From positions 62,001 to 126,000 of the forward strand of contig KV748245.1 of NCBI GenBank assembly GCA_001692895.1: 64,000 nt of DNA, written 5' to 3'. A model generated the notes under the pieces. That model saw nothing but the letters and a program-made list of their open reading frames with translations. It searched no databases and was not told the origin of the DNA. The translations under genes were made by a program, and so were the position numbers. Shown piece by piece: positions 2,350-64,000 of the stretch (positions are counted from its first letter, which is position 1; each line of letters opens with the position of its first letter). This stretch comes from Cenococcum geophilum 1.58. Taxonomy: Eukaryota; Ascomycota; Dothideomycetes; Gloniales; Gloniaceae.

Positions 2350-2650
2350 ATTTAAACGGTTGTTGTGTGGCTCTGGCAACAGTCGTATAGCGATAACGAC
2401 GGTCGTCTAGCTCTGGCAACGGTTATCTGGCTCCGGCGACGGTCGTCTAGCTCTAACAACGGTCGTCTGGCTCTGACGGTCGTCCAGCTCTAGCGACGGT
2501 CATCTAGCTCCGGCGGCGGTCGTCTAGCTCTAATAACGATCATCTAGCTCTAGCGACGGTTATCTAGCTCCGGCAACGGTCGTCTAGCTTTAACGACGGT
2601 TGTCTGGCTCTGACGGTCGTCTAGCTCCGGCGATAGTTGTCTACTAGCTA
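2350..2650. repeat. Minisatellite, about 20-bp CGGTCGTC unit
   Basis: Head-to-tail units of the type ACGGTCGTCTAGCTCTGGCA vary by C/T and A/G transitions. The same unit, reversed, forms the array at 42705-42978 and 58276-58400. Confidence 0.85.
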
Positions 2651-2784
2651 TCGTTCTAGTGTCTTCCTAGGTAGGGAGAATATAAGAAAGGGTAAAAAAT
2701 AAGGTAGCTACCTAGGTGTATATAGGGGGTATACTTAGCAAAGGCACGTGTAGAGGCTATTGGGAATATAGCGGGGACCTAATA

Positions 2785-3270
2785 CGGAGCTTCGTGTAGA
2801 GCCTCCGTATACAGAGCTTTATATAAAGCCTCTATACGCAGAGCTTCGCGCAGAGCCTTATATAGAGCCTTTATATATAGAGCTTTATATAGAGCCTTGT
2901 ATAGAGCCTTATGTAAAGCTTTATATAGAGCTTTATATAGAGCTTTATATAGAACTTTGTGCAGAGCTTTATATAGAACTTTATATAGAGCTTTGTATAG
3001 AGCTTTATATAGAACTTTATATAGAGCTTTGTATAGAGCTTTATATAGAGCCTTATATAGAACTTCGTATAAAGCCTTATATAAAACTTCATGTAGAGCC
3101 TTATATAGAACTTTATATAGAGCCTTATATAGAACTTCGTGTAAAGCCTTATATAAAACTTCGTATAGAGTCTTATATAGAACTTCGTATAGAGCCTTAT
3201 ATAGAGCTTTATATAGAGCTTTATATAGAGCTTTATGTAGAACTTTGTATAGAGCTTTATATAGAACTTT
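2785..3270. repeat. Minisatellite, 12-bp GAGCTTTATATA unit
   Basis: About 40 copies of a 12-bp unit with GAGCTTTATATA as the commonest form. On the minus strand each unit reads TATATAAAGCTC, so the array carries many TATA-box-like strings. The period keeps several frames open, giving repetitive ORFs that I do not count as genes. Confidence 0.85.
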
Positions 3271-3309
3271 AAAAAAAAATACTAGTATCTAATTTTACTT
3301 TTCTACTAT

Positions 3310-13917: not shown

Positions 13918-14170
13918 ATAGAATAAGGTCTATAAGAACTTAGTAATAAGAAAACTGACTCTCTTTTAAGTAAGAAGGAAACAGATCTAAGTAGTTTGGT
14001 AACTACTCTTCTTAGGTCCCCCTTAGGTAACTTATTCTTTAGCGATTCTTCTTTATTAATACTACCTAACCTAATCTCTTCTAATACTCCTATACCTTTC
14101 CTATAGCATTTTTTAAATTTTCTAGTGGCTCCTAAGTAGTTTTAGTGTAGCCTATCTACTTAACCTTGTA

Positions 14171-37429: not shown

Positions 37430-37850
37430 CTATTGCTTATCTTAATAGCGAGTTATCTTAAGCCCTTATTAAGTTAGAATGTTCTTATAATGCGGAATAG
37501 AAAGCCCTAAATGCTTATATTACAGCATCTACTTAATTACTCCATCTTAAGAAGGTTTATAAGAAGGTTTATTTTAAGAAATAAAAACTTATAAAATAAG
37601 ATTTATAGGAACTTAGTAATAAAAGAACGGATTCTTTTCTAGCTAAGAAGGAAATAGATTTAAGTAGTTCGGCAACTGCTCTTCTTAGGTCCCCTTTAGG
37701 TAACTTATTCTTTAGCGATCCTTTTTTATTAATACTGCCTAACCTAATCTCTTTTAATACTCCTATACCTTTCTTATAGCGTTTTTTAGATTTTTTAATA
37801 GCTTCTAGATAGTCTTATTATAGCCTATCTACTTAACCTTATACTATATT
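37430..37850 (+). pseudogene. ORF antisense to pol in Gypsy B
   Basis: It contains SQALIKLECSYNAEQ, then LKKVYKKVYFKK, then SSSATALLRSPLGNLFFSDP, with stops read as Gln. It lies in the same place as in copies A and C. Confidence 0.55.
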
Positions 37851-40800
37851 TTATTATTAATATTTTTATAACTAATAATTTTTAAAACTTACTATTTATC
37901 TTCCTCTTATCCTCTATACGTGTTTACTTTATAAACTAGTAGTTTAATATCTCTATATACTAGCTCTAGCATTATAATATGCTATATAGGGTAGATTTTT
38001 ATCTTAGCTAGTAGGTTTAACTTAAACGTAACTAGTGAAATTCTTTATATAATTTTAAAGGGTCTTAGCCTAACATAGTCCAACTTCTTACTTAGTTATT
38101 AACTCTTAAAATTTTTATATAGTAGCTATACTTTATCTCCCTCCTTAAGATCTGGTCCCTTAGATCTCTTAGCGTTATAGTACTTTTTTATTCTTTTTTA
38201 TACCTTTTTTGCTAATTCTGTAAGGTCTATATAAAGATTTATTAATATCTTTATTCTTTCTTTAGCTATACTACTTATCTTTTTTGCTTATTATAGTAAT
38301 AATAATATTCTTAGCTTATATCCGTAATTTACCTTAAATAGTAATATGCCTATTCTTTTTCATAGTATTATATTATATGCAAACTATATAACTAGTAATA
38401 GCGATACCTAATTATTCTATATATAATTAATATAATACCTTAGATACTGTTCTAGTATCTAATTTAATCTTTTTATCTATTTGTCTGTCTACGGATAATA
38501 TATAGTAAAAGTTACTACTCTAACTCCTTACTCCGCTAAGAATACCTTCTAAAATGCTGCTATAAATTTTAGATCTCTATCTAATATAATTTTACTTAGT
38601 ACTCTATATCTTATAAACACTTCTTTAATATAGATTTTAGCGATATCTTCCGCTAAGATTTCTTCTATATATGCTATAAAGTAGCCCTATTTAGTTAACT
38701 TATCTACTATTACTAAGATTACGTNNTNNTCTTATCCGGTAATAGGATCTCTTAACTTTAGTAACTTAATAATAAAGTCCTATAATATAACCTCCTATAG
38801 TCTCTCTAGTATTTTAATAGGTTATAGCCCTCCGTATAGCTTATGCCTTATTAGTTTATTTCTTTAGCAATTTAGATACTCTTTTATTACTTTTCTTATA
38901 ATATTTTAGATTCTATTAATAATATATTCTTCTTATAGCCTTAACACTAAGCCTATTACTCCATTATGTCCTTAAGTTATTCCCTTATAGAAATCTTCTA
39001 TAAAATGCTCTACTATGCTTCTTAGGATGTACTTTGTTTCTTAATTCTTATATATATCTATCTATAAATCTTCTAGCTGTGCTTCTAGAATTCTTTACGC
39101 CTAAAAGCTCTCTAGTATCTTGTAAACTCTTTTTAGTTTATTATTTTCTTAAGTTACTATTAGTTTAAGGTGGTTATATCTAATCTATCTATCCTTATCT
39201 CTGCGTAGTATTACTCCTAATAGTTTCTTTTATTCTATAGTTTAGCTTTTCTACTAAGTACATCTACTCTTATATTCTCGGTTCCTTTAGTATACTAAAT
39301 CTTAAAATAGTATTTTATAAGTATCTCTGCCTATCTAACTTGTCTATAATTAAGTTCTTTTATTATTAGGAACCCCATTAGGTTTTTATAATCCGTTTTA
39401 ACTATAAATAGTTTCTTTACGCCTTATAAGAATGCTTTCTATTCCTTAAGTACTATAACTATACCTAATAACTCCTTATTATAGACGTTATAGTTTAACT
39501 TTAGTAGTATTATCTTTCGACTGTAATATAATACTAGATGCTATACGTCTTTATACTTTTATAGTAAATATACTCCTAGTGCGTAATCTAATATATTTAT
39601 TTCCACAACTATATCTAGTCCTAGTTAGTAAATTTTAAGGATTAGCTCCTAGGTAAATAATTCCTTAAGTTCCTTAAATAGTTTCTTTTGTTTATCTCCC
39701 TATACCTATAGTTCCTCTTTCTTTATAAGCCTAGTAAATAGTTTAATATTCTTTAACTACTATACTATAAACCTCTAGTAGTAGTTGCAAAACCCTAAAA
39801 ATAACCTTAACTGCATTACATTCTCTAGTTCTTACTAACTTACTATAGCTTTAATCTTCTTTAGGTCTATATTAATATAATCTAGTTTAATAATAAATCT
39901 AATAAAATCGGTCTTCCTTATAAAGAACTTATATTTTTTAATTGCTACTAGCATCTATTCTTCTTATAGTCTCTTTAAGANCTATTTAATATGTTCCCCG
40001 TATTCTTCCTTAGTCATTAAGTAGATAATAATATTATTAAGGTATGCTATAATAAACTTATTAAGGTATTTTCCTAACACACTATTAATTCTTTTCTAAA
40101 ATATTATTAGTACATTTGTTAACCTAAATTATATAACTAATAATTTATATAGTCCTTCTCTTAACCTAAAGACTGCCTTTTATTTATTGCCTTCCTTAAT
40201 CCTAATCTAATAGTACACCTATCTTAGATCTATCTTTATAAAGATTTATATATTACCTATCTAGTCCTAAATTTTACTAATTAAGGGTAAAGAATACCTA
40301 TCCTTTTAAGTAATGCTATTTAACTATCTATAGTTAATGCATAACCTAAGTTTTTTGTTCTTCTTTAGTACGAATAATACTAGATAACCTGCTAATAACT
40401 ATAATAGTCTAATATATCCCTTTTGTAAGTTCTCCTAGATAAACTCTTTAAGTGCTTTAGACTCCTCTTCCGTAAGCTTATAAGTTAAAAAGAACCTTAG
40501 ACTTATTCCTAGTTCTAACTCTATTTTATAGTCCTATACTATATANTNTNCTNGCTTTTTANTTTNTAGNCTCTATAGTTTCTTNCNATACTTATAGTAT
40601 CTCTTTAGTATATAACTTAAGCCTCGCTTAGTCTCTTTATATATTACTCTAACTTAGTACTATACTAACTTAGTTTACTATTATATCTTATGTTATTAAG
40701 TATCTTTAATATTGACCTAGCCTATAATCTAATTAATCTTTAGATTATATTCCTGTAACTAAGTATAAGGGTACTTTTAGTCCCTTACTCGGCTACATCC

Positions 40801-41626: not shown

Positions 41627-42575
41627 CAGAGGCTCTGCACGAGGCTCTATATAAAGCTCTGCACGAAGCTCTACACGAAGCTCTGTATGAAGCTCTACAC
41701 AAAGCTCTATATAAAGCTCTGCTTAAAGCTCTATACAAAGCTTTGCACGAGGCTCTACACGAGGCTCTATATAAAGCTCTACGTATAGAGGCTCTGCACG
41801 AGGCTCTACACGAAGCTTTGTACGAATTCGTGCACGAAGCTCTGTATGAATTTGTGCACGAAGCTCTATATAAAGCTTTGTACGAATTCGTACACGAAGC
41901 TCTACACGAAGCTCTATATAAAGCTTTGCACGAGGCTCTACACGAGGCTCTATACGAAGCTCTGCGTACAGAGGCTCTGTATAAGGCTCTACACGAAGCT
42001 CTACACAAAGCTCTGTATAAAGCTTTGCACAAAGCTCTATACGAAGCTCTATATAAAGCTCTACACGAAGCTCTATATAAAGCTTTACACGAAGCTCTAC
42101 ATGAAGCTCTATACGAAGCTTTGTACAATACTCTATACGAAGCTCTATGTATAGAGGCTCTACATAAAGCTCTATATAAAGCTCTGTACGAAGCTTTATA
42201 TAAAGCTTTATATAAGGCTCTATACAAGGCTCTACACAAAGCTTTGCGTATAGAGGCTCTGCACGAGGCTCTATACAAAGCTCTGTATAAAGCTCTGCAC
42301 GAAGCTCTATACGAAGCTCTATACGAAGCTCTATATAAAGCTCTATATAAAGCTCTATATAAAGCTCTACACAAAGCTCTATATAAAGCTTTACACGAGG
42401 CTCTATACGAGGCTTTATATAAAGCTTTGCGTATAGAGGCTCTATATAAGGCTCTATATAAAGCTCTATACAAAGCTCTGCACGAAACTTTATATAAAGC
42501 TCTATATAAAGCTCTATACAAAGCTCTATATAAAGCTTTATATAAGGCTCTACACGAGGCTCTACACAAAGCTCC
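41627..42575. repeat. Minisatellite, 12-bp GCTCTATATAAA unit
   Basis: About 79 copies of a 12-bp unit, mainly GCTCTATATAAA, GCTCTGCACGAA and GCTCTACACGAG. A 480-codon plus-strand frame and two minus-strand frames above 300 codons run through it with tetrapeptide periodicity. They reflect the period and are not supported as genes. Confidence 0.88.
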
Positions 42576-42704
42576 GTATATACGGGGTCCCCGCTATATT
42601 CCCGATAGCCTCTACACGTGCCCTGCCAAGTATACCCTATATACACACCTAGGTAGCCACCTCATTTTTTACCCTTCCTTACATCCTCCCTACCTAGGAA
42701 GACA

Positions 42705-42978
42705 CCAGAACGACAGCCAGCAGACGACCGTCCCAGAGCTAGACGGCCGTCGCCGGAGCCAGATGACCGTCGCCAGAGCTAGACGACCGTCAGAGCCAGA
42801 CGACCGTCGTCAGAGCTAGACGACCGTCGCCGCAGCCAGATGGCCGTCGCCAGAGCTGGACGACCGTCGTCAGAGCTGGACGACCGTCGTCAGAGCTAGA
42901 CGGCCGTCGCCGGAGCCAGATGACCGTCGCCAGAGCTAGACGACCGTCAAAGCCAGACGACCGTCGTCAGAGCTAGAC
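42705..42978. repeat. Minisatellite, 20-bp CCAGAGCTAGACGACCGTCG unit (left part)
   Basis: About 14 units with C/T variation. The array is cut by the giant element at a TAGAC and continues after it. Confidence 0.88.
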
Positions 42979-43015
42979 TATGGTGGGCCATACGTACCAA
43001 ACCGCCAATGTCAAA
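42979..43015 (+). repeat. Left terminal inverted repeat of giant element
   Basis: 37 bp, matching the right end in reverse complement through CCGCCAATGTCAAA. The next 130 bp keep CpA and look much less mutated than the interior. Confidence 0.88.
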
Positions 43016-43555
43016 AATTTCGCGAAAAATCCAAGCTTGTATCTCCGCGTTTTCACACCAAAAACCATGAGATTCCAACCATCTACATTTATTTTAATTT
43101 CTACATCTAGCATATAAGTGAAGCTTAAGATTGTATAGCAGGTAAAGTTTATATACTGATTTCTGGTGTTCTAGTAATAAATCTATTTCTNANACGTCTA
43201 CTACCGCTNTGNAGTCTCTATAGNAACTCAAATTTAGCTTCTTTAACGCTCTTCCTATCTACCGCCGTAATGCCACTAGATGTAGTAGAGAGATTTTATA
43301 GGCCTCTAGGTAACGTAGTTACTCAAGCTTTAAGAAATCAAAGTTCTTATTGGTTAGTTATTCTTCTATTATTATAGCAGACGCTAATAGTGCTGTAGCT
43401 ATTTAGATATTCTTCACCTATTACTATAATAGCCATTGTTAGTAGTATATAGATGCCACCTCCTTATATTTAAAGAAGCTAGATCTAAAACACCTACGAC
43501 TTCTTTATTAAGCTCTTTAGGATATCAGATTTTAATAATTTAATCGATAAAATTC
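43016..43555. other. 5' region of giant element
   Basis: Non-coding as far as I can see. N bases occur at 43191-43231. It may contain the promoter of the first ORF. Confidence 0.4.
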
Positions 43556-44425
43556 TTAAGACTCCCTCTCCTCCTTCCTCTCCACGCCTTCCGCCTCTTC
43601 CACAACTACCACCACCACTACTACCGCCCGCGCCCTCCGCCGCTTCTGCGCTCTCTGCGCCGCTGGGCCGCCTATCTCGCCCCTCGCGCCGCCCACCTGT
43701 TGCTTCTTCTGGAGATATTTGGGATGTTCCTTCGTCGGATAAGGATGGGGATGAGGATGGGGATGAGGATGAGGATAAGGATAAGGATGAGGATGAGGAT
43801 GAGGATGAGGATGAGGATGAGGATGAGGATGATAAGGATAATGCACCTGCTGGCAGGCCTGGGTATGTTATAGAGTATATTAGCGCTATGTCTAGTAGCT
43901 CTAGCTAATACTGTTGTATAGATTTACTACCACCATCACCTTTAATGCCCCGGCCCCTACCCCCGCTGCTGCCGCCCTTGGCCTCCCTCCCCCAACCCAA
44001 TATTAGGCCGACTTATAAAATGCTAGCGTTACGGATGCTCCGGCTGGGCAGTTTGGCTACATAGGTCTAATTTGGTGGGGCGCGCTATCGGCTCGTCGCT
44101 GTGAGATGATAGCCCACGCCCGTTTAATAGAGGGTTCATATAGTGAGGTGCAGCTAGTGGCCTATGACCGCTGCGCTGCAAACGGGCTTATTTATAGGAT
44201 ATATCACACGGCTTTCTATAGCCAGAAGACTCTGGGCCATTAGTGTAGTAAGTGCCGTCTAGTAAATAAGAAGTGCTCGCTGCGCCCGCGTGGCCCTAAG
44301 CCATGACTAAGTCGTGCTGGTCGCGGGAAGGGGGGAAGGGGAGGTAGGGGAGGAAAAGGGGGGCAAGGGGGTATAAGAGGAGTAGGGGGGGTAGGGGGAG
44401 GACGTATTAGTATTAGTGTATAGAT
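43556..44425 (+). pseudogene. Giant element ORF1: Pro-rich, acidic, Cys-rich, Gly-rich protein
   Basis: The plus strand encodes four sections in order. A Pro/Leu/Ser-rich part (TPSPPSSPRLPPLP) comes first. An acidic run of alternating Asp-Glu and Asp-Lys follows, from a GATGAG repeat (43736-43835). Then comes a Cys cluster, YDRCAANGLI...GH.CSKCRLVNKKCS, with C-x2-C-x6-C spacing near its end (about 44175-44280), resembling a zinc-binding or zinc-cluster module. The tail is Gly/Arg-rich (GRGKGGRGGRGGKGGQG). Stops fall at Gln or Trp places. At least one frame change is needed between the acidic and the Cys-rich parts. A DNA- or RNA-binding accessory factor is a guess. Confidence 0.45.
43736..43835 (+). 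repeat. GATGAG hexanucleotide tract
   Basis: GATGAG, GATAAG and GATGGG units in tandem; encodes the acidic run of ORF1. Confidence 0.9.
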
Positions 44426-44436
44426 ATCTTAAAGTT

Positions 44437-44640
44437 AAAGCTTATTTAAAATTAAGGTGTCTTAGTTACTGCAGTAAAAGCCTATTTAAAACTAAGGCGT
44501 CTTGGTTACTGTAGTAAAAGCCTATTTAAAACTAAGGCGTCTTAGTTACTATAGTAAAAGCCTATTTAAAACTAAGGTGTCTTAGTTACTATAGCTAAAA
44601 GCCTATTTAGAATTAAGGCGTCTTGGTCGCTATAGCTAAA
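44437..44640. repeat. 40-bp tandem repeat, five copies
   Basis: The unit contains AAAGCCTATTTAAAACTAAG followed by GCGTCTTGGTTACTGTAG. Copies differ by C/T and A/G changes. The same word returns at 46195-46245, and its inverse (AGACGCCTTAATTTT) at 46270-46285. Confidence 0.85.
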
Positions 44641-46180
44641 GTCTATTTATAGTTACCTTTTTTAAAATAAAAAAAAGCNAATTAATTATAGAAATTTACT
44701 AAATCCTTATTATTTATACTTTTTAATACTAAAAGGTAAAATTTAAGAGATATAACTATAGATATATATAGTTTGTTTTTATTAATAAATTAGCTTNTAA
44801 TAAAAAGATAATAAATAGAAAGTATAAATAAGTCCTTATTAATAAGCCTATTAAAATAATTTAAAAGATAAAGCTTAATACTAATAATGCCTTAAAAAGC
44901 TATATACTTAGCCACTTAATATATTAAGGTGCTATTAATAGGCTAATATTTATTTAGTAGATAAAAAATAAGGTTTTTACTTATATATAGCATTATTTAT
45001 TAAATTATTATAAAAAGACATTTAAAGACTATATAATATTAATATATTAATATTACTAATTTCTATATAATTCTNGAAAATTTAATGCCTTTATAATACT
45101 ATTAATATTAGGCTTAAATATCTTCCTCTTTACCTAATTTTAAGCTAATTAAACACTTTTATAACTTAAAGTACTAATTATATTTATTAATTTAAAGTTA
45201 AATTATAAAATAACTTTAGAACCTTTTTAATTTATATAGTAAAGTAATAAATGTTTAATAAGAAAGTAAAAAGCTATTTCTTATAAATTAAAATTAAGTA
45301 GTAATATATATATTTAATATATAAAAAAGGGGGGGGAATAAGTCAATTATAATATAGAGCGCCTTCTAATTTAGCTATTAAGTAAGGCCTTTACTATAAT
45401 GCTATAATATTACCAATCTATTTTAAAGTACTCTAAGTTATTTACTATATAACTAAATGGCTTATATATTAAACTAATCCTATAGGGCCTTATATAGCTT
45501 ATATTATTATAAAGTAGTATATACTTAAGTATTTTAAAAGTATAGTACTTATTAACTAAAATTAACTCTGCTTTAATAAAGACTTAAGTAAAAGTTAAAT
45601 AATAACTTTATAGTTATTTAATATAAGCGCTATAATTATTAAATTATTTAATATTACTATAAATAGGACTATTAAGTAGTAAAGTAGTAAGAGGTATATT
45701 TAAAAGTAAAGAATAGGGATTAGTAGGTATTTTAAAGGATGAAATAAATTTAAATAAAACGCTCTATAAAGAATGTTATAAAAAAGATATTATAGCTTAT
45801 ATATTATTTTATACCTATTATAGTATCTATATTATTACTATTAAATAGAATTAATTAGCAATTATATAACTATAGTATAAGCTTTTTACTACTATTATTA
45901 TTAAGGAAAAGAGTTTATTAATTTATTAGTACTATAAAAATTATATTAATAATATTTATAACTACTTAAAGGNAACTTTATATTTTTTTTATTCTTTTTT
46001 TTTATAAATATTTATTATATTTAATTATTAATAATAAGGATAGATTTAGTAAATTCAACGTAGATTTCTTTTATTTTATTACCTTTAATTAATATACTAA
46101 GTAATAAGGCTATATTAAGTAGTATTTTAATTTTAATTTAAAATAATATATATATATTTATTTATCTTTAAAGTAATTAT
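44641..46180. other. Extremely AT-rich core of giant element
   Basis: About 1.5 kb with almost no C or G. No coding frame survives and no motif is recognised. It lies between copies of the GGCGTCTTGGT word. It may be a separate, heavily RIPed insertion or the shared control region of ORF1 and the transposase. Confidence 0.4.
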
Positions 46181-46189
46181 AAAATTAAG

Positions 46190-46290
46190 GAGTTTTAGTT
46201 ACTATTTAAAATTAAGGCGTCTTGGTCACTGTAGTAGATCTTATCTAATTTAAAGGATCTACCGCGGTGTCTAAGACGCCTTAATTTTAG
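46190..46290. repeat. Inverted repeat upstream of the transposase
   Basis: AAAATTAAGGCGTCTTGGTC and, about 70 bp on, the inverse GTCTAAGACGCCTTAATTTT form a hairpin-capable pair 70-100 bp before the transposase start codon. It could be a binding site for the transposase or a transcription factor (inference). Confidence 0.6.
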
Positions 46291-46360
46291 AACTTAAAAA
46301 AATCCATCTAAGCTCCAATACTTCCTCTACTCCCCCTACTTATCCGTCCGTCGCACTACT

Positions 46361-48200
46361 ATGCCTCCATCTATCGACTACCAATCTTATCGCGACGAGA
46401 TCTTACAGCTCCGTGAGTAGTATACTGTCGACGATATTATTAAGGTCTTTTGTGACCGTGGGGTGTAGCTTTCTAAACGAACGCTTGAATGAAATCTTTA
46501 ATAGTAGAATTCCTCTTAATATAGCCCGCGTGTTAACTACTAAGACCCTATCCTATAAAGCAAAGTTATAATCTTATTCTTTAATTACGCCTTTAGTGAC
46601 GCTGATATTATCCTTGCTCTAAAGCGAGAAGGCTATAAGATACTACCCCGGGCGCTAAAACGTCTGCGTAAAATGCTAGGCCTTCCTTGCAGATTTGATA
46701 TAAAGAATATCGACGTAATAAATAATGAGCTTAGGCGGGTTGTTTAAGAGGAGCTTAATAAGGGTATAATAGGCTTATATGGGAAGAGCTTCCTCTATAT
46801 ATACTTTTAATTGAGGCATTATAATGTATTTTAGTAAGCTTGTACTTCCTGGCCTTATAATTTATACTAATCCTTATAGTGTAGGAACCGACTTTTTCGT
46901 ATAGTAAAGGAGCTTGATCCTAAAGGAGTTGCAGCCTAAAAGTACCGCCTTGATCGCCGTTGTAGAGAGTATATTACACCTAGGCCGAACTACCTGTGGT
47001 CGATTGACGCTTATTATAAACTGGAGAGGTTTAGTATACAAATATACGCTATAATTAACGCCTACTCGCGTTGTATAGTCTGGCTCTACTGTTCCATTAC
47101 AGCCTGTTTAGGCGTAAGCGTCGTTAAGCAGTATATAAGAATAGTGAAGGCACTAGGTGCTTAGCCGGAGCTGCTACATTCTAACCACGGTAGTGAGACT
47201 TACATAGTAGCAGATTACCACTTTTAGCTCACGCAGCTCTTTTGCGATAACTACGTTAATAAAGATACTGGGGAGCCTATTGCTAGAGAAGATATATTAT
47301 TCGTATATGCGTTTATATTTGGTATAAGTGTTATAAATTAGAGGATTAAATCCTAGTGGGCATATATAACACGCGGTGCTTTAAAGTAATAAAGAGTAAG
47401 CCGTCTATGTCCTATATAGAAGGCCTAGTTAATAAGGATACTCTAGGAATATTTTATTAAACTTAAGCGAGAAGGGAATTGGAATAAGTTCTCTATATAT
47501 AATTGAATTGCCTTACTTGCTGTCTATATGCCTATTATTTAAACTAAGCTTTAGGATTTTTGTAGATTATGGAACCTCTATAATATTTGTAAGCAGCCAA
47601 ATCGCCTAAATAGTGTGTCTGGTTAGCCTCTTAGAAATTATATATATTTAGAGGCTACCGATACTATAGACTATAGGTACGCAGTACTAGAGGATATAAT
47701 AATGTCCTTTGTAGATATAGTTAATAATATTAGTATATAAGCCTCTTTATAGAACTAATGCAGTGCTAACTAATCCCGTGTAGAGATTGACCAGTATCTT
47801 TTAGAGGATACGTTTTAGTGGTGTAAAGCTATACTTATTAAATTAGGCTTTCCGGATAGCAAAGTCTCTAGTACTAACTTTAGTACGGACGATCTGAGTA
47901 GTAGGCGTGTTTATTATAAGGCTTACCTTTAACTAAGAGTAGCGGTGAGTATATATATATAGGAAGGAACCCTCCCTAAGTTAGGGGAGCTTAAGGATCC
48001 TCCGTAGTTTGCTAACTATAAATAGTTACGTAAATATAAACAAGCACTATAAGATATAGGCATAAACGTTGACAGGCTTGACCGAGAAGGCGGTGGTGTT
48101 GTGGTAGATAACGGATTGCCTCTTGCGGATAGGGGCGTATAGGACGCTGCAGAGCTAATTATATAAAAGTGTAGAGTGGCCCTAGGTTATAAGATTAATT
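46361..48200 (+). pseudogene. Giant element ORF2: rve-integrase-like transposase, RIP-inactivated
   Basis: From ATG at 46361 (MPPSIDYQSYRDEILQLRE) one frame persists to about 48150, interrupted mainly by stops at Gln or Trp positions. The N-terminus resembles a helix-turn-helix (TVDDIIKVF..RGV). The catalytic core follows the integrase-core pattern seen in many fungal and animal transposon proteins: WSIDAYYKLERF, then AYSRCIVWLY, then a D-x-G-x-E box, then I(N)QRI-E-S-W-W. The first Asp is kept (47006-47008). The D-x-G box reads SNHGSE (Asn, 47183-47185). The presumed catalytic Glu reads Lys (47348-47350). All are G-to-A changes. Function by family: strand transfer at element ends. The family resemblance is from memory, without an alignment. 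Confidence 0.68.
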
Positions 48201-48339
48201 GTTATACTAATTAAGTAGCTTTCTAATAACTCTATTCTAGTCCTCTGTATACTCTTATCTACCTCTTTTAAATACCGCTTATAATATTGCATTTATCCAT
48301 CTCACTAACTATTTATTTTGTGGTGCTGTTAATCCCGCC
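48201..48339. other. Spacer between transposase and ORF3
   Basis: Short non-coding stretch with no recognised signal. Confidence 0.35.
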
Positions 48340-48651
48340 CTAAACGCGGGATCGCTAATACGGGTATAGGCTTAAACAGATCCAGCTTAAGAATTAAGAA
48401 AGTCACGCGGTCTCTCTAATAATGACTTTAATCTAGCGAGTACAGATGCTCTTATTACTACGCCTAGTAGCAGTAGTAGGACTGTAACTCCTACTGCTAT
48501 AGTATAAAGCATACTATTAGTGGACCGCTCGTAATTAGTTACTCGTAAAATAAGCAGCTAAGTTGGTATTCCACGACCTAACTCTAGCGTGGTAGCAGCC
48601 GCCAGGAGTATATTACTTAATAACCGCGTTCGCCAGATGCCAGTCCGATAT

Positions 48652-48854
48652 TATTAGGACGCCAAGGTCCTTAGGGCATGTAGTAACGTAATAACAGTAA
48701 CGGGATACAAAGAATATCTGGTTCTTAATGAAGTAGAACTATAGAACTAAATTCTGCTGTTCTCTGATGCGGGGCGACTACGTTTTATAGGCGCCTCGCC
48801 TGCGCCTCGCCTGCGCTAAGCCGGTTACGGCCAGTGCGTCTCTATGGCCTAACA
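48652..48854 (-). repeat. 3' LTR of Gypsy E
   Basis: 203 bp. The first dinucleotide is changed from TG to TA. Confidence 0.92.
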
Positions 48855-49429
48855 ATTACCCCCCCCCCTTCTTAAGCGGCTGTCCTTAGCCGACGTTATT
48901 ATACAATAGGAGTGCTATTATTGTCCTTCTCTAAATAAAAAGTTTTTAATAAATTTAAGTAAATTAGATAATGTAATAATAGGACAATGTAATAATAGGA
49001 TAATGTAATAATAGGACCTTATAGAGATCTATAAAGGTAGGAGTTCCCACTTAGGTAGGATATTAGATTTCCCTTCCAATTCTATTTTAATTTGTTTAGC
49101 CTGCGACTCGCCTTCTTTATAACTTTTAATTAACTATAAATCGCAAGCGCCAAGCTGTTAGTCTATTTATTGGTGAACCTTCCGTAAGTATTCTTTATAC
49201 TAGCTTATAGCCGTCGCTAACCCTACTAGACGCCGTTAAAGCTCCTATATTACTCGTAAGCCGCTCCCCTAGCCTTGCTAGAACTAATCTACCTCCGCTA
49301 TACTAAGCGTGTAGCTACCGCTAGGCGGGCTACCTACGGCAAGTAGGCCAACCGTAATTATGGGTACTGCTAATAACTAAATAAGTTATATTAACCAGTA
49401 AGTCTAAGTATATTAGTTTAGGTTCTAAT

Positions 49430-49925
49430 AGCTAATAAACTAGGTCCCTAAGGCCTTCTATAGCCGCCTAAACGAGCTACTCGCCCTTATTAACAGGGCT
49501 AAGCGCCAGCAGGTTACTAGCGGAGACACGGCTAACCTTAACGCTCGCGTTGCTGCCGCCTAGAAGTCCTTTATAAAGGATATTAAGGCCTTAGTACGCA
49601 CCGGCGCCAAGCACGGTCTCCGCCAGCGCCTAAAGGGCGAAGATTTTCCTTTACTCTAAGTGCAGGAATTGCAGGCCATCCGTCATACTTTTAAAGGAAT
49701 TCTTAACGTAATGCGCGCTTTAGTACGTGTTATAGCGCAGGTGTTTTGCCGTTATAGCGTATGCTAACAGTACTTATAGGCTAATATGCCTCCTATTATA
49801 AGGGATAAGGAGGAGGATAAGGGTAAGGAGGATAAGGAGGAGGGAGAGGAGGAGGATAAAGAGGAAGAGGAGGAGGAGGATAAGGAAGGAGGGGAAGAGA
49901 GGGAAGATTCGCTGGAGCTATAGAG
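49430..49925 (+). pseudogene. ORF antisense to pol in Gypsy E
   Basis: Between the 3' LTR and integrase, the plus strand keeps a clear frame: FYSRLNELLALINRAKRQQV, then KSFIKDIKALVRTGAKHGLR, then ELQAIRHTFKGILNVM, then a long Glu/Asp/Lys-rich tail from GAGGAG repeats. The stops are TAG or TAA at expected Gln sites. The first part is predicted helical. No domain is recognised. It occupies the same relative place as the antisense frames of copies A-C but has a different sequence. Confidence 0.6.
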
Positions 49926-50039
49926 TATCTATATTTCTGTCGGCGTACTACTATTACTCTACCATCGTTCCGTTATCGCCCCACTAGTAGGGCGTAATCT
50001 CAGTTATAATTAAAAGTTTTTTATTTTCCTACCTACTTT

Positions 50040-53000
50040 TTCTTCCGTTTACCTCTTAGTATAAAGTAACTATTATATATCTCCTTTACGTCCTTATTAA
50101 TATCCTCTACGGGGACCTATTAGTTATATTCTTTTAGCTATCCTTTCTACTTAACTAGGTACTATAGGGTCTGGTTATGTCCCTTCCTTCTATATACTTC
50201 TTCTACCTTATATCGGTCCTCTTAGTCCGCTTAATCGTCTAGCTTAATAGGCCCTAGTAGAGGGTCTTTAGTAGTGCCCTTATATTATTTATATAGCTCT
50301 AGTAAGCTAATATAGAACACTAGGTGGATACGGTAAGACGTAGGTAGATATAGTTAGTATGCTTACTTTCCGACTAGTTTGGCTATATTAAAAGGTCCAA
50401 TAAAACGTGCTGTAAGTTTCTTACTTAGCCTTTTTAGTTTAAGGTTCTTAGTTAATAGCAAGACTAAATCCCCTACTTTATATACCTATAATTAGTAATA
50501 ACGATTATAGTATTTTACCTACGCCTTAGCGGCGTATTCCTAGCGCTTTGCCAGCGCTTTGCGTTTAAGGGATATTCTTTTAATCCTCTTAGAGGCGGCT
50601 AGAATAGAACTACTATCGTTTACCTTAACCTTATATTCTAGACGTAGGTGAAACCTATAGTAGGCATAGAACGGGCTTATACCCGTCGTGCTATATTTAG
50701 CATTATTATAGGCGAATTCGGCTAGTAATAAAAGGCCTGCTTAGTTACTCTGCTTCTTATTATAGAATATATAGAGGTAATACTCTAGGGTTTAGTTCTG
50801 GCGTTTTGTTTACCTATCCGTTTACGGGTAAAAGGCCATACTTAGCCTACGTTTAATCTTCGCAGCAAAGTATAACTCCAACCAGAACTTACTAGTGAAG
50901 ATACTGCCGTAATTAGATATAATCCCTCTAGGGGCTCTGAAATGGCGTACTACTTCGTTAAGGAAGAGATCCGCAAGTTCGGTTGCAGTAATAGTTTTTA
51001 CTATAGGCAGATATAAGGCCATCTTAGTATAGCGGTCGACTATTACGCATATCGCGTTATATACCTTATCGCCTCGTCTATTAGGCGGTAGGCCTGTAAT
51101 AAAGTTCATTATAATCTCCTACCACGGCTAATCCGGGTAAGGCAGCGCTTAAAGCTCACCATAAGGGCGATGTCGAGGCGTATGTATACGCTGGCATAGA
51201 TTATAGGTAGAGATGTAGCTTATAACGTCCGCATTTATACTGGGCCAGTAGTACTTACGCGTAAGTAGATCTAGAGTCTTTTTCTTACTAAAGTGCCCAG
51301 CTAGGGCATTATTATAGTAGATCTGTAGGAGTTCTATATAAACTGCTAGGTCTAGGGGCATATATAGCCTCCCGCGGTAATAAAGTAGTCCATCGGAATT
51401 AAACTACCACACTGGCTTTGAGCGGGCGCGTTAACGGCTTCTCGCCGTATCTATATTGTCGCTGCGCTTTTGTAGCACAAAGTTATCTATAATTTAAAGT
51501 CCTTTAATAAGCTCGACGACTGTTTCCGTACTAGACTCATAGGCACTCTCTTAAGCGCTTACTACTCTAACTTAGGTCCTCATTACACGCTGCTCGACAG
51601 CATGCGTGCCGGTTGCCCAGTTAAACTATAATGCTACATTGCTCAGGCGTACCTCCGTCGGGTCGCCAGCTTATAGCTATAAAAGCGACACCTCTATAGA
51701 AGGCTCGCTTTCCTATACACCTAATAGGACTTTTACTTCGAGTTAGTAGCCCTATATTCCCAAAGTCCTTTAAAGTAGTAGTAGCATAGTGTCTTCTTCT
51801 AGCGGACCCCCTACGCCTAGGGGTCGCCTTGACGGCGCGTCTACGGGGTTCGTTTTTCCCGCCCTATACTTAATGATAAAGTTATAGGCAGCTAGGGTTA
51901 TAGCCTATCTGGCTTGCCGTCTATTAAGGGCTTTTACTTTTATAAAACCCTTTAGATTATTATAATTTAAGAGCACTTCTAGGCGGCTTAATAGCCCCTT
52001 AATGTAGTGTCTCTAATGCTTAAAAGCCTCTACGATAGCTAGTAGCTCCTAATCGTGGGTCTTATAATTGCGCTTTATTAGCAAAAGCTTTCTAAACTAG
52101 AAGGCTATTAAATACTAAAGGCCATCTTTAAACAGCTGTAATATAATTGCTGCTAGGCCTTATATAGAGGTATTAGTCTCCAACTAAGTTGGTAAGCCTG
52201 GCGTATAGTATTACAGAAGCGGCGCCGTCGTAAAGGCGTTATAGAGCCAGCGTATCGCCTGCTCCGCCTCTTCTGGCTAATTAAAAGGCCTAGCTTTACG
52301 GCCGTTCTTTGCTCCTTTTAGGAGATTAGTAATAGGCTTTATAATAGTAGAGTATTTATAAATAAACCAATAATAGAAGTTGGCAAAACCTAGGAAGACC
52401 TAGATATCCCTATAGGATTAAGGGCTCTCCTATTTGGTAATAGCTTCTACCTAGCTAGGATCCATTGCTATGCCTTTAGGACTAATAATATATCCTAGAA
52501 ACTTAACCTCTTGTACGCTAAACCTACACTTCTTAAGGTTTGTATATAGTTAATATTATTACAACCTACGTAGCACTTCTAGTACGTAGCGCTAGTATTC
52601 CTCTAGATTTTCAGAGAAAATTAGAATATTATTAAGGTAGACTATATAGAAGACGTCTACTAGTTTTAATAAGGCCCGATTAATATAGCCCTAAAAGGTC
52701 GCTAGTCTATTAGTTAGCCTAAAAGGCAAAACCAAGTACTTAAAGTGGCCGTAGCGCGTACGGAATGCCGTCTTTTATTTATCGCCATAACGGATATAAA
52801 GGCGGTGATACGCATGCGTTAGGTCCAGCTTAGTAAAGATCTTAGAACCTACTAAGCGGTCTAAGGTCTTACTAATTAATGGTAGTGCGAGACGATTCTT
52901 AATTATTACCTTGTTAAGGCCTCTATAGTCTATACAGAGCCGCAGCTTCCTATCCTTTTTAGGTACAAAGAGGATAGGTGCCCCTACGGGACTAGTACTT

Positions 53001-54920
53001 AGTCAGATCCAGCCTTTAGCTAAGGCGTCGTCTAAGTACTTCCTTAGGACTTTTAGCTCCTTAGCTAAGAGGTTATAGAGCAGCCTATATAGGGCCTCCT
53101 GTCCCTCTTCTAGGTCAATAGTATAGTCGCCCTAATAGTATTAGGGTAGCTTTCCTGCTTCCTTATAGGAGAAGATATTATTAACTTCCTTTAACTATGG
53201 GGGGAGGACTAGTAAGCTACTGTTGTCTTACTTACTAGGCATTACTCTAGAAGTTAATAGGGTAAAGACCCTAGATTCTATCTAGAGAGACTTTGCGAAA
53301 CCCTTAGGGGTTTATAGTAATAGGGACGAGCTATCTAGCTTTTATTATTACGCCTTTACCTTATAGTCAATAAGAAGTTAGGCCTTCTTTAACCCCGGCA
53401 TACCTAGGGTAATAGTAGGGGATGCGTTAGCTATTCTATAGTAAATAAGGGTTACTTCCCTAATCTTACCCTAGCTGTCCTTTATTCTTAGTGGTATCTT
53501 ATAGGCCTTATAGTAATGTGCCTAAGTCTTATTTAACCAGGAGTAGGTAGGTAGCTTTACGTCTAGCGTTTTAAAGTTGCACTCTATAGTAAATCGCTAG
53601 TTAACTATATTTACTTCAACACTAATATTGAGTATTACTAAGGTCTCCTTCTAGGTCTACTTAGAGAGGACTTTACCTAGGATAGTAATAGCTTCCTTAC
53701 GATCTAGTGGGAGCTTGCGCCCTAGGGCTATAAGGGTGCTTAAGGGCGCTTATCTTTTCCTAGTATAGAGGTAGCGTTTACGCTACTAGGCGGTGGTTAA
53801 TTCTATTACTATACTTTACATTATCGCCACTAATGTCCTAGTTACCTACATTTGGTGCAGTTTCCTTTAGGCTATATTAAACCCCCAATAGTATTGCTTC
53901 GCCCCGCCGTTAAGTTACTAGTGGTGGTTTTGGAGTCCGCTTTTCCTAAGTTACCTAACTAGGTGGTTTTAGTATTTGAGTTTACGGCGCGCCTATTACT
54001 TCTACCCTATAGGGCGCTTACGCTCTTTTGGTTTTCCTTTAATAGGGCAGCTAGGGAAACTAGCTAGTCTTAAGTTTAAGGGAATTTTTAATAGTTGGTA
54101 ATAGTAACCCGTAGCTCTAGCCGCAGCTTTACGAACAGATGTATTATTAGATGCTTTGCATTATAAGGAGAGTTAATTTACGCTTTTAAGGAGGTTAAGT
54201 AAGCAGTAAACTTATTTACTAGTTAATCGGTTCGCTATATTGCCCTTAAATAGGTTAGGGCTATATAGAGTTCTTAATTAATAGGACTTTTAATCTAGTT
54301 AAGTAGGAATTCTATAAGCTCCTCCTAGGTAAACTGCGTGTCTAGATGGTTATCTTCGTACTATAGCCAAAGGGTTCGGTTGGTCCCCTTTATATATTAC
54401 ATAGTAAACGCGACTTTAGTATCCTTATTTATAAAGCTGTCGCGCTCTAGGCGGAATGCTAGCTTTAAGCTATCGCGGAAGTCTTAGTGCTTTTATATAG
54501 TCTTACTATAATACGGAGCAATCTTCTCTATTTTAACGGCCCGTTTTAATAGAGCGCCTAATATGTTAATAGCCCTCCGCTTAAGGCTCGAATGCATTAG
54601 GCTACCCCCTAAGTACTCTAATAGGACTGTTTAAGGTTATAGAGATGGGTTAGGAACGGGAGTTAACGTCGCCTTACCGCGTTAACGCCGTCTTAGCACT
54701 TCCACCTCTTCCCTAAGTAAGTGTAGTTTTCTTTACTCTAGGAGTTGCAGCTTCTTATTCTCTAGCCGTTATATTTCTTCCTATATATCTTCTTTGCCTA
54801 TAACTTCCGGTTCTGTCCGGGATAAGGGTTTGCCTATATTATCCTAGGGCCGATCCCCAGACTTAGTAGTACGTACTACGCTAGTACGCCCGCGTCTCGC
54901 CATTAGGTCGATGGGCTGTG
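50040..54920 (-). pseudogene. Gag-pol of Gypsy E, RIP-inactivated
   Basis: In minus order, gag-like text (about 54900-53800) is followed by reverse transcriptase, RNase H-like sequence and integrase. The RT reads [31 protein letters not shown] and VYLNNILIF. The catalytic YLDD is YLNN (codons at 52628-52633). The integrase has a zinc-binding HH-CC domain relic (51149-51361, LTRKYYWPSI) and a core with NFITGLP and IVDRYTKMA (50822-51109). In the core's D-x-G box the Asp is Asn (IISNYGSIF). The order PR-RT-RH-INT is Ty3/Gypsy. The gag boundaries are inferred by position. Confidence 0.78.
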
Positions 54921-55039
54921 ATATAGTTAATAAATATAGGTCGTCTTCTTAACAGAGGGTTGCCGCTATATAGTCGTGGCCTTCGCAGACCGCTGTGTTG
55001 TCGGGCCACTACCCCTAAAAAGGGATAAGAATTCAGTAC

Positions 55040-55242
55040 TGTTAGGACGCCAAGGTCCTTAGGGCATGTAGTAATATAATAACAGTAACGGGATGCAAAG
55101 AATATCTGGTTCTTAATAAAGTAGAACTGTAGAACTAAATTCTGCTGTTCTCTAATGCGGGGCGACTACGTTTTGTAGGCGCCTCGCCTGCGCCTCGCCT
55201 GCGCTAAGCCGGTTACGGCTAGTGCGTCTCTATGGCCTAACA
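55040..55242 (-). repeat. 5' LTR of Gypsy E
   Basis: 203 bp; keeps the intact TG...CA ends. Confidence 0.92.
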
Positions 55243-56600
55243 GATATATAGGTGTGGGCATTGGTTAGGGTGGAGCTAGATTAAATACTGTTATGCTAGC
55301 ACCGCAGGGGGAGCAGCGACTAGTTCCTCCTTAAGCACTAGATAATATTGCCGTTAATATTAAGTTATATATTATCTAGAGCTTATTTTCTAAAGGGATA
55401 AGTCCTGCTAGTAACCAAGACTATAATAACGAAGTAAAGCCTACTGGTACGTTTATATTTAGCCCTTAGCCTTATAATCTAATCCTATATATATAGAATA
55501 GTGGGCCGTAGTTATAGTTAATTATAATCTTCTTACAGCTAAGGACGATTAAAATCCTCTACTGGAATTAATGCTTAAATAGGTTAATAAAAAGGCTCTT
55601 AAGTATTAGATTAAACACTTAAAGTACGTTAAGACAGTTCTAGCTCCTAGATGGGACCTTAAAATTGTAAATAGCATACCGCGTCTGGCAAAAAGTTAGG
55701 AGTCTAATATTTGACTTTTTAAGGCACTTAGGAACTTTAACGTTATTGGTAGAAAGCCACTGTACCGGTATATAATATACGTCGTTATTATTTAATATAA
55801 TATGGAACGCGTAAAGGAACTTCTACAGACACTAGTAAGCCGGAGAGACTATAACGCACTGATTTCTTAGCAAGAAGAAAGTATACCCTAATACCTACTA
55901 TTACGCATAAAAAGACAAAATATAATTGAGAAAATTTAAGTGAAGGTGGACGATATAGATTCCTGGTTGAATGGCCCCGCATGCTTAGCTCTAAAAGAAG
56001 CTGATAGACCTATACCTTTAAAGGAGGTTATAGAAATCTTAGACTCTCTATAGGGTAAATTACCACTTATAGAGTTGCCGATAGAGATAGGATGGGCTAA
56101 AATAATACAGGCGACGAAGAACAGGATAATGATGATATTATAACTCTAACGCCAACTATAAGAAATAAGCTGACTAAGCTGAGGCTTTTACTAGGAAGGT
56201 TAAGGGAGGTAAGATTTGCATAGTATATAGTTGCTATTAGCGCTAACTATCTATAGACGGAACCTAAATCTTACCTACCGCACGTTCTAAGCTCGTCTCT
56301 TCTCTCTATTTTAGACACCTTACTACTACCAGTAAGCCTAGTAACTAAGCGCGGCCGTCTTAGCGACTTACTATATATATAGTCCTTTGGGACTATACGA
56401 AACACTATAAAGGTAGTAAAGCAAAGAGCCCTTAGACGTAAAGAGTAGAGTAGCTAGGATATATAAAGCGGTAATAAGAGCGCTACTAATATGAGTAAGG
56501 GTAAGAGTAAGAGTAAAGGCAAGGGTAAGAGTAAGGGTAAGGGTAAGGGTAAGAATAAAGACAGCATTATATAGGCCAAGGGACTCTGTAGGAGTAGTCG

Positions 56601-57480
56601 TGGGTAAAATACTATAGGTATTATAGGCAACTGAGTAGCAGTAATTTGGATTCTCTAATTACGCTTTTCCTAACTAGGGAATTATATACTGACCTAGTTT
56701 ATTGACTTTAGAACAGTACAACGACTCGCGATTAAAGCCCTTCTCTTACCTTCTTTACTACCTCTGGCGAAGCTACCGTTGCGCGCTGTACTTGATATAC
56801 TTATAATAAGGGTCCCTATAAACTGGCTTAATTATATTACCAATGTTACTTATATAGCTGGGGGGTAATCGATTTTTAGAAAAAATTTCCTATTAAATCT
56901 TTTAACTGTCCCGCAGTGACTAAGCAACCTTAAATTCAACCATTTTAACGCCTACTTCCTTTGGGCAATTGCAACAATTCCTGACCGAAAGACGTGGTTT
57001 ATACTTCCCCCACGTACGTAATTAAAGCTGTTACCTTATACTGTGTTTAATATGCATATAAGGAAGGCCTCTGTAACTTGGCTTGACCCTACTATAGATA
57101 TTAATGATATTAGTAGGGGGTAATCGATTTTTTGGAGTTGATTTCCTAAGGAGATTTTGGTTTTCCAAGCCAAAAAACCGCATTAAGTAATAACGTTCGG
57201 GAACGCAAATATATAACCCCTCCTACATCTACACTACCACTAAATCTTTTAGATTTTATACTCGGAGCTGCTTACAATAGGTATTCCTGGAAGATCTGCC
57301 GTATTAAAGTTTTAAAATTAAATATTGTTAACGTTTTATATAGGGGTCGTCGCTTAAGCTCCCGGGACAGGATTTTTAAAGTTTAACACCACTACCAAGT
57401 CTCATAACTTCCTCGTAACCATAAGCCCACCCTCTTCCTCCCATCATTCGGCGCCGAGCCTTATTGCGTCACTAAGCCAT
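56601..57480. other. 3' region of giant element
   Basis: No gene is recognised. A word GGGGGTAATCGATTTTT occurs twice (about 56864 and 57116), each followed by AATTTCC or GATTTCC, suggesting an old internal duplication of about 250 bp. Confidence 0.4.
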
Positions 57481-57481
57481 T

Positions 57482-57570
57482 ACATCGTCGCCGAGCCATT
57501 GCATCGTCGCCGAGCCATTGCATCGTCGCCGAGCCATTGCATTGCCGCCGAGCCATTGCATCGCCACCGA
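57482..57570. repeat. Tandem repeat, 19-bp GAGCCATTGCATCGTCGCC unit
   Basis: About five copies, nearly identical, with little RIP damage, followed by a run of ten C. Confidence 0.85.
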
Positions 57571-57597
57571 GCCCCCCCCCCTCTCTTCCAAAAATCA

Positions 57598-57775
57598 AGA
57601 TATACGAGATCCAAAAACGATCAAAAATCAAGGACGATCAAAAATCAAGAACGATCAAAAATCAGGAACGATCAAAAATCAGGGACGATCAAAAATCAAG
57701 AACGATCAAAAATCAAGAACGATCAAAAATCAAGAACGATCAAAAATCAAGAACGATCAAAAATCAAAAAAGATC
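57598..57775. repeat. Tandem repeat, 17-bp GATCAAAAATCAAGAAC unit
   Basis: Ten or so copies. Because 17 is not a multiple of three, the three plus-strand frames are read in turn and all stay open. They are not treated as genes. The array keeps CpA dinucleotides. Confidence 0.88.
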
Positions 57776-57859
57776 AATTTTGGTTCCCTGCGAGAATCGA
57801 CCTCGTTAGCCGTGCAATCGATTGCTCAATTGAGTAGACAGTGAGGTGGGGGACACGAA

Positions 57860-57998
57860 TCAGACGTCGCTACGGTATTCGCACCACCCCCTATGAGGGA
57901 GTCTCGATATACACCTGTATGATCTCATCCTGTAGGTGTAGATTTGAATCAAATCGAGGTAGTTACCTTACCTCAATACCACTGAGCCACATGGCGAT
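57860..57998 (-). repeat. tRNA-like sequence (possible SINE or tRNA relic)
   Basis: On the minus strand TGGCTCAGTGGT matches the pol III A box (57989-57978), and GATTTGATTCA resembles a B box with C-to-T and G-to-A changes (57955-57945). GAGGTA and TACCTC could form an anticodon-like stem with a 7-nt loop. The A-to-B spacing is about 10 nt shorter than in a normal tRNA, and the acceptor ends do not pair, so it is not a functional tRNA. Confidence 0.3.
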
Positions 57999-58233
57999 TT
58001 AGTTATCATGTGACCAAAAAAATTTAATATATAAGGCCTCAAATGAAATCACAATCAATATCTACACTAGCCCAAATATGCACTAAAATCGTGATCAATA
58101 TAATATCTATTGCCTATTAAAAGAAGTATCTAATTGTTACCACAAAGACTCTTCAAATCAAAGCTCGAAATCAAGGCTTCAAATCAAAGCTTCAAATCGT
58201 GGTTCAAATGGGGCGATATTTTGATGAGGCGAA
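57999..58233. other. Subterminal region of giant element, little RIP
   Basis: AT-rich but with many CpA dinucleotides, and repeats of AAATCAAAGCTTCAAATC type near 58150-58205. No gene. Confidence 0.4.
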
Positions 58234-58270
58234 TTTGACATTGGCGGTTTGGTACGTATGGCCCACCATA
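58234..58270 (-). repeat. Right terminal inverted repeat of giant element
   Basis: Mirror of the left end. The outer bases are CATA, followed by the TAGAC duplication. Confidence 0.88.
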
Positions 58271-58275
58271 TAGAC

Positions 58276-58400
58276 GACCGTCGCCGGAGCCAGATGACCG
58301 TCGCCAGAGCTAGACGACCGTCAGAGCCAGACAACCATCGTCATCGCCACACGACCGTCGCCAGAGCCACACGACAACCGTTCGAACGACCAGCCAGCGA
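58276..58400. repeat. 20-bp minisatellite, right part
   Basis: Continuation of the array cut at 42978, with units around GCCAGAGCTAGACGACCGTC. Confidence 0.85.
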
Positions 58401-58439
58401 ACACGATAAACGATTCGATCGATCGATCGAATCAAGGTG

Positions 58440-58550
58440 ACATAGACAGGTAGGCATAGATAGGTAGGCATAGACGGGTAGGTATAGATAGACAGGTAGG
58501 TAAGCAGGCAGGCAGGCAGGCAGGTAGGTAGGTAGGTAGGTAGGCAGATG
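58440..58550. repeat. Tetranucleotide tract (GGTA/GGCA)
   Basis: AGGTAGGCAGGCAGG-type units; inverse of the tract at 2110-2292. Confidence 0.9.
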
Positions 58551-62344: not shown

Positions 62345-62815
62345 TAGTTCCCTAATTAATTTGTCTTAAGGTTTTATATTTAATCTGCTGCTACGCGGCT
62401 AGATAGTAAACTGTCTTAAGCCTTTATTAAGCTAGAACGTTCTTATAATATAGAGTAAAAGGCTCTTAAAGCCCATATCGCGGCGTCTGCTTAGTTACTC
62501 TATCTTAAGAAGGTTTATAAGAAGGTTTATTTTAAAGAGTAGAAACTTATAAAATAAGGTTTATAGGAACTTAGCGATAAAAGAACGGATTTTCTTCTAA
62601 TAGAGAAGGAAATAAATCTAAGTAGTTCAGCAACTGCTCTTCTTAGGTCCCCCTTAGGTAACTTATTCTTTAGCGATCCTTCTTTATTAATACTACCTAA
62701 CCTAATTTCTTCTAATACTCCTATACCTTTCCTATAGCGTTTTTTAAATTTTCTAGTAGTTTCTAGGTAGTCTTAGTATAGCCTATCTACTTAACCTTGT
62801 ATTATATTTTATTGT
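62345..62815 (+). pseudogene. ORF antisense to pol in Gypsy C
   Basis: Reads SQALIKLERSYNIE, LKKVYKKVYFKE, LSDKRTDFLLIEKEI and SSSATALLRSPLGNLFFSDP with few stops, the cleanest of the three copies. Probably a basic, helical protein of unknown role. Confidence 0.6.
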
Positions 62816-64000
62816 TAATGTCCTTATAACTAACAATCTTTAAAACTTACTATTTGTTTTCTTTTTATCCTCTATATATATCTGCCTTATAAACTAGTAG
62901 CTTAATATTCTCATATACTAGCTCTAGCATCGCGATATACTATATAGGGTAGATTTTTATTTTAGCTAGTAGGTTTAACTTAAACGTAACCGGTGAAATC
63001 CTCTATATAATTTTAAAAGGTCCTAGTCTAATATAGTTTAACTTCTTACTTAGTTGTTAACTCTTAATATTTTTATATAGTAGCCATACTTTATCTCCCT
63101 CCTTAAGATCTAGTCCCTTAGATCTCTTAGTATTATAGTACTTTTTTATTTTCTCTTATACTTTCTTTATTAATTCTATAAGGTCTATATAAAGATTTAT
63201 TAACGTCTTTATTCTTTCCTTAGCTATACTACTCGTTTTCTTTACTTATTATAGTAATAACAATATTTTTAGCTTATATCCGTAATTTGCCTTAAATAGT
63301 AATATACCTATTCCTTCTTATAGTGTTACATTATATGCAAACTATATAACTAGTAATAATAATACCCAATTATTCTATATATAATTAATATAATGCCTTA
63401 AATACTATTCTAATATCTAATTTAATTTTTCTATTTAACCGTCCGTCTGTAGATAATATGCGGTAAAAGTTACTACTCTAACTTCTTACTCTGCTAAGAA
63501 TACTTCCTAAAATACTGCTACGAATCTTAGATCCCTGTCCGATATAATTTTACTTAGTACTCCATATCTTATAAATACTTCTTTAATATAAATTCTAGCG
63601 ACATCTTCCGCTAAGATTTCTTCTATATATGCTATAAAGTATCCCTACTTTATAAGCTTNTCTACTATTACTAANATNNCNTNNTAATCTTANCNNGTAA
63701 TAGGATNTNTTAANTTTAGNAACTTAATAATAAAGTCCTATAATATAACCTCCTATAGTCTCTTTAGTATTTTAATAGGTTATAGCCCTCTATATAGCTT
63801 ATACCTTATTAGTTTATTCCTTTAGCAATCTAGATATTTTTTTATAACTTTTCGCGCTAAGCCCTAGATTCCGTTAATAATATACTCCTCTTAGAGTCTT
63901 AATACTAAGCCCGTAGCTCTATTATATCCTTAAGTTATTCCCTTATAGAAATCTTCTATAAAGTGTTCTGCTATACTTCTTAGAATATACTTTACCTCTC
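62816..64000 (-). pseudogene. Integrase-side pol of Gypsy copy C, partial
   Basis: Collinear with 14170-15350 of copy A. RIP-type stops are frequent. No active-site box lies inside the visible part. Confidence 0.55.

Follow-up and report, generated by a model that had tools for sequence, protein, structure and literature searches.

The window analysed here is a 64,000-nt stretch of Cenococcum geophilum 1.58 (contig KV748245.1, 62,001-126,000; assembly GCA_001692895.1), in which position 1 is the first letter, and it contains at 42979-58270 a transposon with the relics of three genes, termed A, B and C below. The element measures 15,292 bp, including a nested Gypsy retrotransposon, and is bounded by 37-bp terminal inverted repeats (TIRs) that are 100% complementary: the left (42979-43015, plus strand; TATGGTGGGCC...) was found by repeat search and by genome pattern matches, and the right (58234-58270, minus strand) by repeat search. 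At up to three mismatches, the TIR has just these two matches in the window, against a mean of 0.00 in shuffled sequence. The pentanucleotide TAGAC lies immediately outside both ends (42974-42978 and 58271-58275). Joining the flanks with a single TAGAC yields an unbroken 20-bp minisatellite, which bears out the exact TIR insertion claimed in an earlier note made from the sequence alone. Without the nested Gypsy, 8,696 bp remain (15,292 minus 6,591 minus 5), in agreement with the ~8.7 kb of that note, although an element of this size is not the "giant" it was called.

The gene relics between the TIRs lie on the plus strand. Gene A is represented by a Cys-rich part (44025-44324), recognised from matches in other copies, and perhaps by an acidic (D/E-rich) N-terminal part in the open frame at 43489-43908 (plus strand), which was taken from the list of open reading frames (ORFs) and has a similar layout beside gene A in copy C3 (C-numbers denote places on contigs of the assembly). 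The acidic stretch is in another frame than the Cys-rich part, through either an intron or a frameshift. An array of 40-bp repeats found by repeat search (44433-44649) is followed by an AT-rich spacer reaching to ~46.1 kb, which is common to the window copy and C68, and then by gene B (46361-48211), an integrase-type transposase relic recognised by Pfam, with assumed frame ends. Gene C is split into a first part at 48331-48651 (start approximate) and a second, frameshifted part at 55243-56600 (end approximate). Between them lies the Gypsy long terminal repeat (LTR) retrotransposon (48652-55242, minus strand, 6,591 bp or ~6.6 kb), flanked by a GATAT target duplication (48647-48651 and 55243-55247). 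This nested Gypsy, which the earlier note had proposed, is identified by its LTR pair (206 nt, 95% alike; repeat found as 48649-48854 and 55037-55242), by Pfam matches in pieces of it (RVT_1, 2.8e-23; Integrase_H2C2, 4e-13) and by its absence from the same point of C68, where the GATAT site is clean.

Gene B is the transposase-like ORF that the earlier note had suspected. The Pfam integrase core profile rva_4 (PF24764) matches the window copy at 1.4e-15, and the copies C68, C59 and C112 at 7.5e-10, 3.7e-8 and 2.1e-8, respectively, so that all four are over the cut-off; a second rva_4 stretch is present in the window copy, which has 41 in-frame stops in 617 codons. Pfam rve itself scores far weaker on gene B (0.14, below the cut-off). 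A search with the rva_4 profile found four places in the assembly and none in 14 control genomes. No H2C2 finger was found beside rva_4 in any of the four gene B copies at E up to 1 (for C112, E up to 0.001 over the first 384 residues). A regular expression for HHCC was negative in all four; part of the nested Gypsy, used as a positive control, returned Integrase_H2C2 despite its stronger bias towards repeat-induced point mutation (RIP; composite index 1.51 vs 0.96). If the D of the WSID motif is catalytic, as we assume, and if translation starts at the ATG at 46361, it is residue 216 of the window gene B; the criterion used for IS3EU/GingerRoot places the first catalytic D 100-300 residues from the N-terminus. 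Viral contigs showed 72 pattern matches, none of them a tblastn-confirmed relative of the gene B alignment (A1), and a separate TIR search of them found nothing; a search of solved structures gave two matches (E 0.16 and 0.25), which we take as chance. The hallmark of Starships is a captain gene encoding a tyrosine recombinase; Pfam scans of pieces of A, B and C revealed no tyrosine-recombinase domain, no search aimed at a captain having been made.

A second full-length copy lies inverted in C68 (335358-350501) and can be aligned collinearly with the window element to the exact ends, at 93.5, 94.2 and 89.0% identity. It carries another insertion between genes A and B, with TG..CA ends and an AATAT duplication, which is taken for an LTR element. 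The order A-B-C is kept inside the TIRs of the window element, C68, C112 and C59b, where a piece of each gene was matched, and the three ORF relics proposed by the earlier note are thereby found again in C68 and C112; C57 has pieces of B and C only. That note had also named in advance what would speak against such a unit, namely copies without these ends or ORFs lying outside the TIRs, and the unit withstood this comparison, which was made within the same genome.

The window transposon and that of C68 each lie in a copy of one and the same minisatellite-bearing host repeat, but not at the same point. In the right flank of C68 the target of the window element is unbroken (91.7% over 398 bp; the one gap, of 17 bp, is not at the junction). 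It is unbroken also in an inverted copy within the window itself, near 2-3.4 kb (79% over 432 bp), and the C68 target is unbroken at window 58424-58478 (minus strand, 53 of 55 positions). Because the target is a tandem array, these empty sites are paralogous rather than orthologous; they are weaker than orthologous ones, yet agree in both directions.

The family was surveyed in the window's own assembly, a single genome of 177.2 Mb on 162 contigs. The first 25 bp of the TIR, allowing up to three mismatches, have at least 49 matches, and the reversed control pattern has none. Sorted by position, 34 of the 49 form 17 facing pairs within 40 kb (window included), two are an inner pair in C49, and 13 are solo ends. 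Duplications were counted in the 17 facing pairs and in a divergent pair found later, C59b, leaving out the C49 inner pair and the solo ends. All 18 pairs start with TAT, enclose units of 1.9 to 39 kb and are flanked by a 5-bp duplication, exact in 17 and matching at four of five positions in C59a; an exact 6-bp duplication occurs in none. The chance of a single exact 5-bp match is ~0.001. The 5-bp duplication given in the earlier note is supported. The duplicated bases have no strong motif, the first being C in 11 of the 18 and never A (orientation is arbitrary for most). C59b (857069-867642), with ends TATRGCGGACTG.. (also given as TATRGCGGACTGAATGTGCCAAACC), is a divergent relative whose B protein is 43-45% identical; since its duplication is ATTAC (also given as GTAAT), the 5-bp length has persisted across this divergence. 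In the C49 copy (25.8 kb), an additional, imperfect TIR motif lies 92-94 bp inward of either end. This inner pair was rejected as a nested insertion because the sequences that flank it on the outward side are inverted repeats of one another, and we regard it as belonging to a longer TIR with internal repetition.

The element has decayed with a RIP-like bias. In its left part, gene B and its right part, the TA/AT index is 1.51-1.67 and the substrate index 0.56-0.60, a pattern that we take to be that of RIP, while window 21-30 kb gives 0.90 and 1.18. Such a pattern makes a filamentous ascomycete the probable host. Gene B matches eight stretches on six contigs, all with stops, and because of these stops and the RIP-like base bias the family looks dead in this assembly.

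We read the element as a class II transposon of the IS3EU/GingerRoot kind, in a variant with a 5-bp stagger, at a probability of roughly 0.8. The window TIRs have TATGG..CCATA ends, and gene B has an integrase-type DDD/E core with no detected HHCC/H2C2 N-terminal finger. Complete IS3EU families are reported always to have TA..TA termini and no HHCC (PMC10045372), and IS3EU of rusts to have TIRs of more than 30 bp, ends TAYGG..CCRTA and accessory genes (PMC12730594), all of which resemble what is found here. The accessory genes differ: the rust families termed TET+, one of which is named from Tuber indicum, are described as carrying TET/JBP and alpha-kinase genes (PMC12730594), in place of the Cys-rich gene A and gene C of our element. 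GingerRoot shares the lack of an HHCC N-terminus and has mostly TA..TA ends (PMC10045372). The Styx element of Zymoseptoria is reported to have a 36-bp TIR, a length of 7,927 bp and four ORFs including an integrase, the others being GATA, CCHC and DUF3577, and its authors suggest a common origin with IS3EU (PMC10853768). Compared by description with these fungal relatives, our element resembles them in its ends, the length of its TIRs, its size and the type of its transposase; it departs from them in duplication length and accessory genes, and from Styx in having three ORFs rather than four. Moreover, among the DNA transposons of Colletotrichum lupini, IS3EU is named as the most abundant (PMC11645255). 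The earlier note had held that the element fits no known kind; this is unsupported, because in its ends, in the length of its TIRs and in its type of transposase it agrees with fungal IS3EU elements already described, a group that the note had not named.

Several observations weigh against this placement. The duplication is 5 bp here, whereas the literature gives 6 bp as usual for complete IS3EU families and for GingerRoot (PMC10045372), and 6 bp for rust IS3EU (PMC12730594) and Styx (PMC10853768); IS481EU, with duplications of ~4, 15 or 25 bp, does not correspond to our element either (PMC10045372). One end each of C59a and C59b reads TATAG instead of TAYGG, one transition off. At best, rva_4 is matched over ~80 of its 194 profile positions, protein searches with gene B (alignment A1, then the core of the window copy) returned no relatives, and a structure prediction of gene B was discarded at a mean pLDDT (predicted local distance difference test) of 32. 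The survey is limited to one genome and its pattern counts are lower bounds, and window 8-13 kb is intermediate in its RIP indices (1.49 and 0.89), so that the bias is not confined to the element. IS3EU membership is provisional because the usual 6 bp is not found. Among the titles and abstract openings listed in the literature search, none names a 5-bp IS3EU family, although an account beyond these may exist; the two papers that hold both IS3EU and "5 bp TSD" (target-site duplication) apply the latter to hAT, CMCT, IS2 and IS481EU (PMC12730594, PMC10045372).

That an integrase-type transposase with a fixed 5-bp stagger, working with two dedicated proteins (A and C), and ends that also mobilise very large non-autonomous units of up to 39 kb mark a deeply separate lineage, possibly a superfamily of its own beside IS3EU, seems to us unlikely. 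We regard as distinctly unlikely a separate superfamily, sister to IS3EU/GingerRoot, with the 5-bp stagger and the accessory genes A and C as its defining traits. The constancy of the duplication, maintained down to C59b, speaks for such a separation, as do accessory genes that, in the pieces tried, have no Pfam match at the cut-off except a marginal Zn_clus in one of eight gene A copies. Against it, the TATGG..CCATA ends, the TIRs of more than 30 bp and an rva_4 core with no detectable H2C2 agree with IS3EU as portrayed in PMC10045372 and PMC12730594, and duplication length is itself reported to differ among hAT elements and among members of the IS3 family (PMC12730594, PMC10045372). Membership of Ginger2/TDD would account for both the 5-bp duplication, as made by TDD-4 and TDD-5, and the integrase-type transposase, but Ginger2 is characterised by TGTNR ends and an H2C2 finger (PMC2836005), whereas all 18 pairs here begin with TAT and no H2C2 was found before the core in the four gene B copies, within the scope given above for C112; we consider this very improbable. 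Ginger1 was rejected, its 4-bp CCGG or CCGT duplications being found in none of the 18 pairs. A chance composite, in which unrelated inverted ends happen to enclose host DNA and gene relics, is refuted by the full-length C68 copy, the three-gene order in four places, the duplications in all 18 pairs and the reciprocal empty sites; nothing was found to favour it, and its probability is negligible.

For the IS3EU-like variant that we prefer, the gene B transposase would bind the 37-bp ends and free them, and the freed ends would be joined to target DNA with a 5-bp stagger; after repair, 5 bp would be duplicated, and the target sites would show no strong motif. Gene A, which is Cys-rich and possibly DNA-binding, and gene C belong on this reading to the autonomous unit. 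How long the duplication is depends on how far apart the two strand-joining points lie, and this length serves to sort transposons. If our assignment is true, a 5-bp branch with IS3EU-like ends and transposase, its stagger retained even in a relative with a 43-45% identical protein B, would show that this spacing can shift inside the group, as is reported for hAT and IS3, and annotation that requires a 6-bp duplication for IS3EU would overlook such families.

The same ends also flank units of ~2 to 39 kb with no detected match to A, B or C. Searches by tblastn for A or B gave none in the 12 other copies compared (C49 and C107 in part; C13 with 3,748 N), and whole-assembly searches for A and B place no match in them. 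A non-autonomous family of ~5 kb has the TIRs of the element and carries short repeats close to either end, its copies differing in length (L010-L012, L015-L020, L023, L024, L027). Its member C54 (5.4 kb), with such short repeats near both ends, is covered over 4.4-5.3 kb by C7, C9, C22, C2, C26b and C38, and by C107 in its left part. Two portions of C54 recur in the window element: the terminal 120 bp (88.5%) and 1.1 kb of AT-rich sequence (69.5%), the latter at 44738-45803 within the window spacer. Because the ends are shared, a B-type transposase may have cross-mobilised these non-autonomous units. Sequence of 7.1-7.6 kb is common to C38 and C68 and may be one and the same nested LTR insertion.

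With 44025-44324 as query, gene A matches 17 stretches in the assembly, one of which, in C3 (G000:C3:3179139-3179438; L076), has no stops. One CX2CX6C motif is left in the window copy and two in the C3 copy, and of eight copies scanned only that of C3 matches Zn_clus, marginally (21.2 against a 21-bit cut-off); DUF3716 appears in the C3 copy only, below the cut-off. A Tet_JBP match in one of eight gene A members (E 0.091) was taken as chance, though TET/JBP genes are reported from some IS3EU (PMC12730594). Next to the C3 copy lie a short piece of gene B, on the opposite strand, and a left end that has degenerated; the copy is either a young relic or a retained gene. Gene C matches five stretches in the assembly and has no Pfam match at the cut-off in the pieces tried. 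The window is without an Rfam match at gathering scores.

Minisatellites of 12 and 20 bp surround the insertion (41639-42978 and 58276-58550) and have an inverted counterpart at 2370-3271 (78% over 951 bp), within the region 2110-3271. Farther outward, each of the two sides also has a 14-bp and a 4-bp array. Together these repeats have the look of termini of a larger unit that spans ~2.1-58.5 kb. The host repeat around the insertion also flanks the C68 copy. Elsewhere in the window, tandem repeats of ~126 bp (21391-22755) have a consensus that resembles WD40 repeats, and long AT-rich direct repeats at 13918-17092, 37591-40763 and 62549-63992, 84-87% alike, are perhaps a decayed dispersed element.

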